Positions 18,722 through 59,926 of a stretch of DNA of 64,000 bases are shown here, one piece after another (positions within the stretch are counted from its first letter, which is position 1; every line of letters begins with the position of its first letter). The DNA is from Acinetobacter sp. YWS30-1 (lineage in GTDB: Bacteria > Pseudomonadota > Gammaproteobacteria > Pseudomonadales > Moraxellaceae), in contig NZ_CP114606.1 of NCBI RefSeq assembly GCF_033558715.1, positions 2,604,001 through 2,668,000 on the forward strand, given 5' to 3'. The notes beneath the pieces are model-generated. The model was not told the DNA's origin, ran no database searches, and saw only the letters and a program-made list of their open reading frames with translations. A program made the translations under genes and the position numbers.

Positions 18722-18741
18722 CTCTCCTTTTAGGAGATGAG
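18722..18741 (+). repeat. Left part of a dispersed repeat, interrupted by IS110 copy 1
   Basis: These 20 bases are identical to 58667-58686 and nearly identical to the same part of the intact repeat at 25801. The rest of this repeat resumes at 19982, beyond the IS110 element. Confidence 0.75.
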
Positions 18742-18773
18742 ATACCGTCTTGGTAGTCAATCAGGTTTTGAGA

Positions 18774-19760
18774 TTATTCGACCACTAAATAATCTCTTTG
18801 ATAGGCAGTCTGATGTTTTAAAACGCCATAACACAGATGTATAAGCTTGCGCATTGCAGCACCTAAAGCACACATTTTATTTTTACCCTGGCTTAATAAT
18901 CGTTGATATAAAGCTTCAATGTGTGGATTATATTTAATCGCTGTTAATGCCGACATATACAATACTGAGCGTATTTTACTGTCACCTGCTTTTGATAAGT
19001 GACTTTGCTTGTTGACTGAACTGCCAGACAACTGATGTACTGGAACCAAACCTACATATGCAGCAGCTTGACTTGCTTTTTCAAACTTGTGCGAATGAAA
19101 TAACCCCAACAGTAATAAGCCTGATCGTTCACCGATTGAAGGAATAGTTTGCAGTAATTTCAAATCCTGTTTCAATGTTGGATCTTGATCTATGTGATTA
19201 TTTATTAACTTATCAATATGTTCAAGTTGCTGATTTAAATACTCAATATTCTCTTCAAGTAATTTAATCACAACAACGGAGGTATGAGTGGACTGCGCCT
19301 TTTCAAGTCGATTCTTTTCCTGCAATAGACTACCTAGATAGACATCTCGTCTGCCTAGTAAAGCTTTTAATAATCTGACATTTTCAGGTTCAGGCTGCCA
19401 TATGATTAACTTTGCGGTGTAACCATAACGTGAAAGAGCTTCACTATCAGCTTTATCCGTTTTATTTAGCATGGACATGCCTTTGGCAAAGGCTCTTACT
19501 CGTGAAGGATTAGCCACACAAACCTTTACACCTGCATCATATAGATAATATCCCAAATTCTCGTGATAAACCGAAGTCGCTTCCATGATTGCTGTCACTT
19601 GATCAGGTTCAATTTTAAGAGTGATGAGCCATTTGAGCAGACTGCCAAAGCCACTTTCTGTATTAGTAAATATTTTATTTTTTCTTTTTCCAGTCAAACC
19701 TTGAGGGAAAATGCAACAATCTATTTTGGTTTTACTGACATCAATACCTAGCATAATCAT
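18774..19760 (-). CDS. IS110-family transposase/recombinase, copy 1
   Basis: The 328-residue recombinase has the DEDD RuvC-like domain at the N-terminus: MLGIDVSKTKIDC (first Asp), IMEATSVYHENLGYYLYD (Glu) and NKTDKADSEALSRYG (the Asp pair, about residue 100-105). A central coiled region around residues 150-200 is followed by the C-terminal Tnp domain with IPSIGERSGLLLL and AAYVGLVPVHQLSGSSVNK, which contains the candidate catalytic serine. AAGGAA lies seven bases before the ATG at 19760. Residue Ile in NNHIDQDP is Met in copy 2. Confidence 0.95.
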   Translation of the reverse strand: MIMLGIDVSKTKIDCCIFPQGLTGKRKNKIFTNTESGFGSLLKWLITLKIEPDQVTAIMEATSVYHENLGYYLYDAGVKVCVANPSRVRAFAKGMSMLNKTDKADSEALSRYGYTAKLIIWQPEPENVRLLKALLGRRDVYLGSLLQEKNRLEKAQSTHTSVVVIKLLEENIEYLNQQLEHIDKLINNHIDQDPTLKQDLKLLQTIPSIGERSGLLLLGLFHSHKFEKASQAAAYVGLVPVHQLSGSSVNKQSHLSKAGDSKIRSVLYMSALTAIKYNPHIEALYQRLLSQGKNKMCALGAAMRKLIHLCYGVLKHQTAYQRDYLVVE

Positions 19761-19981
19761 GGTGATATTCCTTGAGTTTAAGCTATGATTTTTATCCCAT
19801 TAACCATCATCTTACCTTGTGAATACAGCATCAAAGTGCTTAGTTACCGTTCAGAGTTGTATGAGGGATAAGGGCAAATTGTAGGTTTTATCTCAGGTTC
19901 AAATTTAAGATTTTAGCAGCACTCCAAACTCTACAATTTGCGTATAGTGGTAGCTAATCACTATATCAATCAAGATACAAG
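19761..19981 (-). ncRNA. Predicted bridge RNA region of IS110 copy 1
   Basis: In element orientation a 5' hairpin (19943-19965) is followed by two large loops. Loop 1 is closed by an 11-bp perfect stem (19931-19941 with 19874-19884) and contains AGTGCTGCT (19915-19923) and CTGAG (19892-19896). Loop 2 is closed by TTATCCC/GGGATAA (19792-19798, 19865-19871) and contains ACGGTAACT (19842-19850) and ACAAG (19816-19820). The first pair fits the target repeat, the second fits the joined element ends, each including the CT core. This is the layout known for IS621-type bridge RNAs; expression was not shown. Confidence 0.7.
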
Positions 19982-20005
19982 AAGCACTGCCGCGTAAGGG
20001 AGAGG
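19982..20005 (+). repeat. Right part of the dispersed repeat interrupted by IS110 copy 1
   Basis: The sequence after the element (AGCACTGC then a purine-rich AAGGGAGAGG) aligns with the right half of the repeat at 25823-25846 and with 59927-59950 flanking copy 2. Further purine/pyrimidine palindromic sequence of the same type follows to 20058. Confidence 0.7.
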
Positions 20006-42124: not shown

Positions 42125-42214
42125 ATGGCGATAACTAGAAAAATTCTTGTTTTGGTTAGTCTTCTTTTAAGTATCGCAGTTTTAGTCATAAACCTTCGTT
42201 TTAAAGATCAATAA
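42125..42214 (+). CDS. Possible 29-residue single-helix membrane peptide
   Basis: A short reading frame begins with two ATG codons; the second (42125) has CAGGG ending four bases before it. The peptide has a basic start (MAITRK), one hydrophobic helix (ILVLVSLLLSIAVLVI) and a basic tail (NLRFKDQ). It occupies the otherwise empty stretch 41989-42297. Its shape is that of small membrane proteins, but there is no similarity support. Confidence 0.35.
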   Translation: MAITRKILVLVSLLLSIAVLVINLRFKDQ

Positions 42215-42297
42215 GCTCCATCCTTTTTATTTTTCAAAGTTACAGCTAGTCATCTGAAATTTTGACTATAAATCCATAAGATTCAATAGGTTATATT

Positions 42298-42507
42298 ATG
42301 TCTAACACAGTTACCGGTACAGTAAAGTGGTTCAACGAAACTAAAGGTTTTGGCTTCATTCAACAAGACAATGGTCCAGATGTTTTCGCTCACTTCAGCG
42401 AAATCCAAGGTTCAGGTTTCAAAACTTTAGCTGAAGGCCAAAAGGTTTCTTTCAGCGTAGCTCAAGGCCAAAAAGGTCCTACAGCGACTAACATCACTGC
42501 AATCTAA
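42298..42507 (+). CDS. Cold-shock-domain protein (CspA family)
   Basis: The 69-residue OB-fold protein binds single-stranded RNA and DNA. RNP1 (KGFGFIQ) and RNP2 (VFAHF) are both present, with [15 protein letters not shown] at the N-terminus; the length is standard. Expressed alone, with a leader of at least 80 nt and a perfect terminator. Whether it is cold-inducible cannot be told. Confidence 0.95.
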
Positions 42508-42884
42508 TATTGCGAAGATGAAAAAAAGCACTCATTAGAGTGCTTTTTTTGTACCTTAAATTGACTAATTTTAGTTTCCAGATCAATTAATTAAATTTTA
42601 AAGATAATTAAAAATATTCGCTTTTCATTCATCATCTTGTCCTAAATTTCTTCATCTAAATTTATTCAGGTTAAAACATGAAGAAACTGAGAAGAATTTT
42701 GATGATTTTAAAATCAAAAATTGCCCATAAAAATATAGAAGTTTTAATAAAAATTATTATTTATTAATAACTTAAATACAAAATTAAAAAAATCCTGAAA
42801 TTTACAAAAGTGTTGTCTATGGCTCCATCTTCCCTACATCACTGACTCCTATGATGAACTCATTGAATAAATATGAGTATGATC
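42508..42884. other. AT-rich intergenic region after the cold-shock gene
   Basis: Begins with the terminator at 42521-42550. The rest (42551-42884) is very AT-rich, with long A/T runs, and should hold the promoter of the following broken gene. A possible 29-codon ORF at 42678 was considered and rejected. Confidence 0.6.
42521..42550 (+). terminator. Terminator after the cold-shock gene
   Basis: AAAAAAAGCACTC (42521-42533) pairs perfectly with GAGTGCTTTTTTT (42538-42550) around ATTA. Confidence 0.9.
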
Positions 42885-58666: not shown

Positions 58667-58686
58667 CTCTCCTTTTAGGAGATGAG
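58667..58686 (+). repeat. Left part of a dispersed repeat, interrupted by IS110 copy 2
   Basis: Identical to 18722-18741. The rest resumes at 59927 beyond the element. Confidence 0.75.
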
Positions 58687-58718
58687 ATACCGTCTTGGTA
58701 GTCAATCAGGTTTTGAGA

Positions 58719-59705
58719 TTATTCGACCACTAAATAATCTCTTTGATAGGCAGTCTGATGTTTTAAAACGCCATAACACAGATGTATAAGCTTGCGCATT
58801 GCAGCACCTAAAGCACACATTTTATTTTTACCCTGGCTTAATAATCGTTGATATAAAGCTTCAATGTGTGGATTATATTTAATCGCTGTTAATGCCGACA
58901 TATACAATACTGAACGTATTTTACTGTCACCTGCTTTTGATAAGTGACTTTGCTTGTTGACTGAACTGCCAGACAACTGATGTACTGGAACCAAACCTAC
59001 ATATGCAGCAGCTTGACTTGCTTTTTCAAACTTGTGCGAATGAAATAACCCCAACAGTAATAAGCCTGATCGTTCACCGATTGAAGGAATAGTTTGCAGT
59101 AATTTCAAATCCTGTTTCAATGTTGGATCTTGATCCATGTGATTATTTATTAACTTATCAATATGTTCAAGTTGCTGATTTAAATACTCAATATTCTCTT
59201 CAAGTAATTTAATCACAACAACGGAGGTATGAGTGGACTGCGCCTTTTCAAGTCGATTCTTTTCCTGCAATAGACTACCTAGATAGACATCTCGTCTGCC
59301 TAGTAAAGCTTTTAATAATCTGACATTTTCAGGTTCAGGCTGCCATATGATTAACTTTGCGGTGTAACCATAACGTGAAAGAGCTTCACTATCAGCTTTA
59401 TCCGTTTTATTTAGCATGGACATGCCTTTGGCAAAGGCTCTTACTCGTGAAGGATTAGCCACACAAACCTTTACACCTGCATCATATAGATAATATCCCA
59501 AATTCTCGTGATAAACCGAAGTCGCTTCCATGATTGCTGTCACTTGATCAGGTTCAATTTTAAGAGTGATGAGCCATTTGAGCAGACTGCCAAAGCCACT
59601 TTCTGTATTAGTAAATATTTTATTTTTTCTTTTTCCAGTCAAACCTTGAGGGAAAATGCAACAATCTATTTTGGTTTTACTGACATCAATACCTAGCATA
59701 ATCAT
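58719..59705 (-). CDS. IS110-family transposase/recombinase, copy 2
   Basis: The 328-residue recombinase has the DEDD domain (MLGIDVSKTKIDC, IMEATSVYHE, NKTDKADSEAL) and the C-terminal serine domain (AAYVGLVPVHQLSGSSVNK). It is intact and differs from copy 1 by one residue, Met for Ile in NNHMDQDP, plus one silent change. Near-identity indicates recent transposition or gene conversion. Confidence 0.95.
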   Translation of the reverse strand: MIMLGIDVSKTKIDCCIFPQGLTGKRKNKIFTNTESGFGSLLKWLITLKIEPDQVTAIMEATSVYHENLGYYLYDAGVKVCVANPSRVRAFAKGMSMLNKTDKADSEALSRYGYTAKLIIWQPEPENVRLLKALLGRRDVYLGSLLQEKNRLEKAQSTHTSVVVIKLLEENIEYLNQQLEHIDKLINNHMDQDPTLKQDLKLLQTIPSIGERSGLLLLGLFHSHKFEKASQAAAYVGLVPVHQLSGSSVNKQSHLSKAGDSKIRSVLYMSALTAIKYNPHIEALYQRLLSQGKNKMCALGAAMRKLIHLCYGVLKHQTAYQRDYLVVE

Positions 59706-59926
59706 GGTGATATTCCTTGAGTTTAAGCTATGATTTTTATCCCATTAACCATCATCTTACCTTGTGAATACAGCATCAAAGTGCTTAGTTACCGTTCAGA
59801 GTTGTATGAGGGATAAGGGCAAATTGTAGGTTTTATCTCAGGTTCAAATTTAAGATTTTAGCAGCACTCCAAACTCTACAATTTGCGTATAGTGGTAGCT
59901 AATCACTATATCAATCAAGATACAAG
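59706..59926 (-). ncRNA. Predicted bridge RNA region of IS110 copy 2
   Basis: By eye identical to 19761-19981. It carries the same target guide AGTGCTGCT (59860-59868) with CTGAG (59837-59841), and the same donor guide ACGGTAACT (59787-59795) with ACAAG (59761-59765). Identical guides explain why both copies sit at equivalent sites. Confidence 0.7.

Follow-up and report, generated by a model that had tools for sequence, protein, structure and literature searches.

We propose that Acinetobacter sp. YWS30-1 carries a recently mobile insertion sequence of the IS110 group that works like IS621, and we hold this with high confidence. Jumping elements of this kind, which are guided by RNA, were described in 2024. 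Our starting point was a stretch of 64,000 nucleotides from this genome (the window), which contains two of the three full copies of the element in the genome. A first-pass annotation of the window had proposed a bridge-RNA system whose target specificity can be read from its leader. This proposal has held up: the concordance of guides and targets across families, a covarying structure, and a recombinase that aligns with those of IS621 and ISCro4 all support a predicted IS621-type bridge-RNA element with readable specificity.

In the mechanism that we propose, a bridge RNA derived from the leader would be bound by the 328-amino-acid recombinase. The first loop of the RNA would pair with both strands of the target (AGTGCTN and the core CT on the left; CTCA, often CTCAGGT, on the right), and the second loop would pair with ACGGTAT-CT-TGT, the sequence that forms when the ends of the element are joined. 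A circular copy would then be inserted through serine-mediated cleavage next to the CT core and strand exchange, and the element would be expressed from a promoter at the junction. We infer the RNA binding, the cleavage chemistry, the circular intermediate, and the expression from a junction promoter.

The guide-RNA principle has already been published (PMC11208160, PMC11208158, PMC11187229). Bridge RNAs and seekRNAs in this family, promoters formed at the junction, targets in palindromic repeats, and natural redirection have all been published; this element is a new example of a published kind. It lets the pairing rules of bridge RNAs be tested against natural insertions in another genus, with many sites for one guide, guide variants that differ by one base, and off-targets. 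One relative is also a candidate for trans-guiding in nature.

The element and its recombinase

Copy 1 is 1,240 bp long (18740..19979, minus strand), with ends that were set by comparing copies with different flanks. Its left end is TGTATC and its right end is ACGGTATCT, which includes the core CT. The other copy in the window (58685..59924, minus strand) has the same guides. The left flanks are AGTGCTTCT at copy 1 and AGTGCTACT at copy 2, and both copies have CTCAT on the right. At copy 1, the occupied left target, as read from the sequence, is AGTGCTT plus the core CT (19980..19988, minus strand); the occupied right target is CATCTCC (18733..18739, minus strand), directly after the core CT at 18740-18741. 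The core CT is present at both target and donor, with the proviso that it was partly used in placing the ends. The genome also has two short right-end remnants, which adjoin pieces of IS3-type genes.

The recombinase gene (18774..19760, minus strand) encodes 328 amino acids and leaves a non-coding left end of 219 nt upstream of the gene, versus a right end of just 34 nt. The protein matches the Pfam families DEDD_Tnp_IS110 and Transposase_20, and it scores 210.5 bits against NCBIfam's model of IS110 RNA-guided transposases (the cut-off is 140). The only solved structures that match it at E 0.001 are ISCro4 (PDB 9t56, the best match, E 7e-53; compared by protein sequence alone) and IS621 (E 4e-48). 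D7, E60, D102, D105, and S245 (numbered by hand) align with the DEDD motif and catalytic serine of IS621, whose residues are named in PMC11208158. A RuvC-like DEDD domain with a Tnp domain that has the catalytic serine is one mark of IS110-group elements with a bridge RNA. The IS1111 group is instead recognised by subterminal inverted repeats of 7-17 bp and an RNA downstream of the gene. In this element the guides are upstream, and the longest end-to-end inverted repeat is 5 bp (CAAGA/TCTTG). Inverted repeats have been reported to be 2-3 bp in the IS110 group and 7-17 bp in the IS1111 group (PMC11208160). We also observed inverted repeats of 8-10 bp close to the ends of relatives with an upstream RNA (L067-L069, L072-L074, L076, L078, and L093). 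Such repeats (GGAGAGAT/ATCTCTCC, and variants that change on both sides) occur in 9 of the 13 families from outside the genus.

Database records label the gene merely as an IS110 family transposase. Within the genus, 29 of 175 genomes have a match, and 9 of the genomes have 18 places that match at full length and 99-100% identity; in the order, 15 of 390 genomes have a match at E 1e-40. All named records with the element are from Acinetobacter (4 of 4 loci and 33 of 33 plasmids). Of the 16 plasmid records that contain 80% or more of the element, we used 14 (all but H11 and H16), and we used none of the 17 shorter ones.

The leader and its predicted bridge RNA

The leader, which encodes the predicted bridge RNA, fills the space between the left CT core and the ATG (19761-19979, minus strand, as are all features of this section). 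It had been described as 221 nt long, with two loops. It has the layout of a bridge RNA, with a 5' hairpin (19945..19963), a target loop, and a donor loop; the length is 219 nt, as 221 counts the two-base core at 19980-19981. The stem of the target loop is formed by 19926-19940 with 19875-19888, and this loop contains the left target guide (LTG) AGTGCTGCT at 19915..19923 and the right target guide (RTG) AACCTGAG at 19892..19899. The RTG is followed by AT (19890..19891), at the place of IS621's target-loop handshake guide. In the donor loop, the left donor guide (LDG) ACGGTAACT at 19842..19850 matches the donor ACGGTATCT at 8 of 9 positions, and the right donor guide (RDG) ACAAG at 19816..19820 matches at 5 of 5; then comes GT (19814..19815), at the place of IS621's donor-loop handshake guide. 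Donors hardly vary between families.

These positions agree with the first-pass annotation for all four guide segments. It was also right that the joined ends would read ACGGTAT-CT-TGT and that the LTG fits the left target, and the LDG the left donor, except for a mismatch just before the core in both loops. For the right target, it had paired a guide CTGAG with CTCA; the pairing stands, and the guide is longer than was claimed.

Could such matches arise by chance? Among 20,000 shuffles of the leader that preserve dinucleotides, 537 matched the left target at 8 of 9 positions; for the left donor the number was 193, and 7 shuffles matched both. None of the 20,000 had the full arrangement of guides, with thresholds that were set after seeing the sequence. 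When we searched the 175 genomes of the genus with a pattern for the target loop, we found 22 leaders in 10 genomes: 20 with the guide AGTGCTGCT and two with AATGCTGCT.

The putative promoter at the junction was read by eye. Joining the ends would bring TTGACT near the right end (18755..18760), a would-be -35 box, to 17 nt from TATCTT in the left end (19972..19977), a would-be -10 box. A promoter scan of the integrated element found none that reads into the leader from its start.

A single leader folds no better than shuffled sequences (z -1.19; 25 of 200 shuffles fold equally well or better), so the evidence for the RNA's structure is comparative only. In an alignment of ten leaders from the genus (A1, which includes L022 and L029), a five-helix structure has 95.7% of its cells paired. 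Of its 37 pairs, 22 change on both sides, as compared with 0 of 500 shuffles and at most 4 pairs if the structure is slid along the alignment; the structure used for this count was partly derived from A1 itself, which favours it. RNAalifold placed the LDG in a stem, and the pair counting used an apical AGCA/TGCT stem instead.

A covariance search with published models had been suggested in the first-pass annotation as a check. Our own model (R1), which was built from sequences that include the leader of copy 1 and keeps the RNAalifold form, covers 19796-19963. Given 14 relative loci from outside the genus and outside its training set, it detects the RNA in 11 (E ≤ 4.5e-4) and weakly in L080 (E 0.027), and it is negative in 6 of 6 loci that lack the leader. 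This search left out L070, L071, L081-L086, and L088-L094. However, R1 misses the IS621 locus (L095), as well as the relative L079, at E ≤ 10, and a search of Rfam gave no bridge-RNA match at gathering level. R1 also gives weak scores to the opposite strand of the leader's stem (E 0.005) and to one unrelated place (E 2.9). Overall, the comparisons support a predicted RNA structure with a 5' hairpin and two internal loops that is conserved and covarying. Elsewhere in the window, the Rfam cspA thermoregulator matches at 42175-42552 (plus strand), with 87.6 bits versus a gathering score of 78.

Guides and their targets

Copies with the window element's guide, or with its one-base variant, have 22 distinct left flanks, of which 20 go with AGTGCTGCT and two with AATGCTGCT. 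For AGTGCTGCT, 17 of the 20 flanks fit the guide at every position except 7. The other three have further mismatches: one at L098 (AATGCTGCT), three at L099 (AATACTTCT), and four at L101 (TCCACTGCT). The first-pass annotation would have been refuted by copies with the same guide at unrelated sites, and with 17 of 20 flanks fitting, this check came out in its favor. On the right, 24 of 26 distinct junction pairs have CTCA, and 10 of 26 have CTCAGGT. In three of those ten (L021, L108, and L110) the guide reads TCTGAG, which would make one pair of the seven a wobble. Two side observations concern L101 and L098. Four related plasmids (L101, L102, L103, and L111) share one common off-target insertion, TCCACTGCT / CTCAT, outside the repeat that is the usual target. 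L098 lies on a plasmid of A. baumannii E-072658, and its right flank starts with CTTGTATCT, which resembles an IS110 left end, as though two elements were arranged end to end.

A different explanation for the specificity is that the recombinase recognises the palindromic repeat by protein-DNA contacts, so that the matches in the leader would be incidental or leftovers of captured targets. The sequence TTGCG is found upstream of the guide match in every ordinary left flank except one, which would fit recognition of the whole repeat; but these bases are also present in free repeats, so they belong to the repeat. Near-identical elements speak for the guide instead. Both copies with the guide AATGCTGCT are in AATGCT targets, and genome G065 has one copy of each guide kind, each in its matching target. 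So a change of one base in the guide, at position 2, accompanies the same change in the target (Fisher p 0.03, with the two exceptions counted and L049 and L101 left out; the flanks are partly non-independent because of shared contexts and hybrids). Furthermore, L101 lies outside the repeat, and relatives with different guides have different targets that match on both sides. We consider recognition of the repeat by the protein to be very improbable.

The comparison across relatives was made as a permutation test with 20 guide families, one site each, and the best 9-base match of the leader to its own left target. The matches of LTGs to their own targets sum to 165, while permuted assignments have a mean of 119.9 and a maximum of 140, and none of 20,000 permutations reached 165. 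For RTGs the sum is 113 (permuted mean 98.4, maximum 111; again 0 of 20,000 reached it); this test uses a 7-base right target and is not diagnostic for the CTCAT sites of the window element. In general, the first loop fits the two strands of the target, and where the target differs the loop differs accordingly; the exceptions are L026, L098, L099, and L101. The site of L026 (family Bx) does not fit its guides at all, and the family D sites L059, L062, and L063 fit the left guide poorly and the right guide fully. We could place 67 of 76 matched places, with some copies under several locus ids. No left end was recognised for L022, L028, L029, L030, and L070, and no right end for one place in each of L069 and L071; L061 and a single place of L088 were too close to an edge. 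Seven short matches were excluded from the flank comparison. As a separate observation, the family D copies L025, L057-L060, L062, and L063, all in genome G104, have recurrent flanks (left CAAAAGACTTTTGNTTACT-like, right CTTTGGGTCTTTCCAAAG), and several family D copies in this genome have left targets that fit the guide poorly.

What is the target? The 20-mer TTGCGNAGCANTGCTNCTCA is present in 114 of 175 genomes of the genus, and a backwards control pattern has no match in the 175. Among the matches listed (the first 150 copies, in genomes up to G064), 142 have complementary arm bases where about 60 are expected from base frequencies; repeat copies are related, so we do not attach a probability to this. 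Because the arm bases mostly stay complementary, the target is a dispersed palindromic repeat. It surrounds copy 1 at 19980-20000 and 18730-18740 of the window, and other copies are at L010-L012 and L113-L124. The repeat sits between genes and also within IS3-type genes (L119, L123, and L124). Of the four loci that best match the place orthologous to copy 1, two (L128 and L129) are unoccupied and have a slightly different palindrome, and two (L126 and L127) have none, so the repeat seems to be gained and lost and looks mobile. As for a mover, the genome has one gene for a Y1 transposase, and the repeat pattern that we searched for is absent from its locus.

Position 7 is the only arm base of the repeat that changes frequently. 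The guide has G there, and the target base (t7) at the 20 sites is T at 11, A at 4, G at 5, and C at none, so 15 of 20 are mismatched. At the 16 occupied sites of AGTGCT type (self-insertion left out), t7 is T at 10, A at 4, and G at 2. In 96 free repeats among the matches listed it is T in 49, A in 11, G in 30, and C in 6. The guide's own base is present at 2 of 16 occupied sites versus 30 of 96 of the listed free repeats (Fisher p 0.23), so a match is not preferred. Target position 7, the repeat's variable base, seems to be unread by the guide. The counts suggest that natural insertions do not discriminate at the position where this base sits, so one guide would be usable on the sub-types of the repeat. 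In experiments with IS621, in contrast, a match was reported to be preferred at all nine target positions, and position 7 of the left donor to be more tolerant than others (PMC11208160). In families A-E of the genus, the LDG also has a mismatch at position 7 (A versus T). We had considered a position-7 mismatch in both loops as a general rule and dropped it, since LDG position 7 is matched in 12 of the 13 families from outside the genus (family K is the exception).

Position 7 of the target might instead be read by the donor loop after strand exchange, by handshake pairing, which acts at the bases before the core in IS621 (PMC11208158). The target-loop AT does fit the donor's T7 and A6. The handshake base of the donor loop is G here, and G faces a C at t7 in 13 of 13 families outside the genus and in family E; T, the commonest t7 here, could wobble with G. 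But C, which would be the best partner, never faces this G at our 20 sites, and t7 at AGTGCT-type sites is not clearly unlike that of the listed free repeats. The handshake A of families B and D likewise finds no partner at t7. A role for the handshake in reading t7 therefore seems unlikely to us, and we favor the view that the variable base is not read.

Related systems and unusual copies

Like IS621 (PMC11208160, PMC11208158), the element has a DEDD-Ser recombinase, a predicted leader RNA with a 5' hairpin followed by target and donor loops, the order LTG/RTG and LDG/RDG, a CT core, A-U handshake bases that follow the RTG, and a target in an extragenic palindromic repeat. It differs in that its protein is only about one-third identical (36.9% in tblastn) and it has its own guides and its own repeat. 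Also unlike IS621, the RTG pairing is longer at many sites, target position 7 is mostly mismatched, and LDG position 7 is mismatched. The seekRNA element ISEc21 (PMC11187229) likewise has an upstream non-coding region in which the match to the top strand is 3' of the match to the bottom strand. In ISEc21 a promoter forms at the circle junction, and natural redirection has been reported for its relative ISMch6 (PMC11187229). ISEc21 targets a conserved part of IS3-family genes, whereas the target here is a palindromic repeat, with some copies in IS3-type genes that bear the repeat.

Specific insertion into repeated extragenic palindromes was described for the IS110-family elements ISPpu9, ISPpu10, and ISPa11 (PMC1525189), in other hosts and with other repeats. 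That paper is older than the guide RNAs, and the word Acinetobacter is absent from its text. In our literature searches on IS110 and bridge RNA in Acinetobacter and on palindromic repeats of Acinetobacter, neither the element nor the repeat appeared in a title or abstract opening among the matches listed.

The copy that does not fit its own site, the family B element L026 from genome G111, is a candidate for natural trans-guiding by the RNA of another resident element. Its leader is identical at 219 of 220 positions to that of L064, which is at its own guide's site. L026 is instead at a family C site, which guide C fits at 8 of 9 positions on the left and 8 of 9 on the right. A C element, L066, is present in that genome too, and its LDG and donor are the same as those of L026, so trans-guiding is a simple reading. 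The bridge RNA of IS621 was shown to act in trans (PMC11208160). Alternatively, L026 may have used its own guide, or a C element may later have been refilled with a B interior by homologous recombination. We give this account serious weight, if somewhat less than even. Recombination between copies does produce hybrid flanks; L110, for example, combines the left flank of L021 with the right one of L108. However, L026's own guides match the site at just 3 of 9 and 4 of 9 positions, and both of its outer ends are of B type (the left end and the last 25 bases of the right end are as in L064), so the exchange points would need to lie in the outermost bases.

L026 suggests a broader possibility, in which IS110 elements that reside in one cell and have the same donor loop but different target loops might pool their guides, so that the bridge RNA of one would insert the DNA of another. 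In addition, guides that are blind to position 7 would serve all sub-types of the repeat. This broader idea is speculative and we doubt it somewhat; if it were true, then the choice of target would belong to the set of resident elements and not to any single one.

Another unusual copy, L049 (G149:C9:1869370-1870353), lies directly behind a leader fragment whose end is the element's own LTG with the core (AGTGCTGCT, then TGTATC). For this single case, we think it most likely that an element inserted into the DNA of its own guide and that two copies then recombined. The DNA of a guide always resembles a left half-site.
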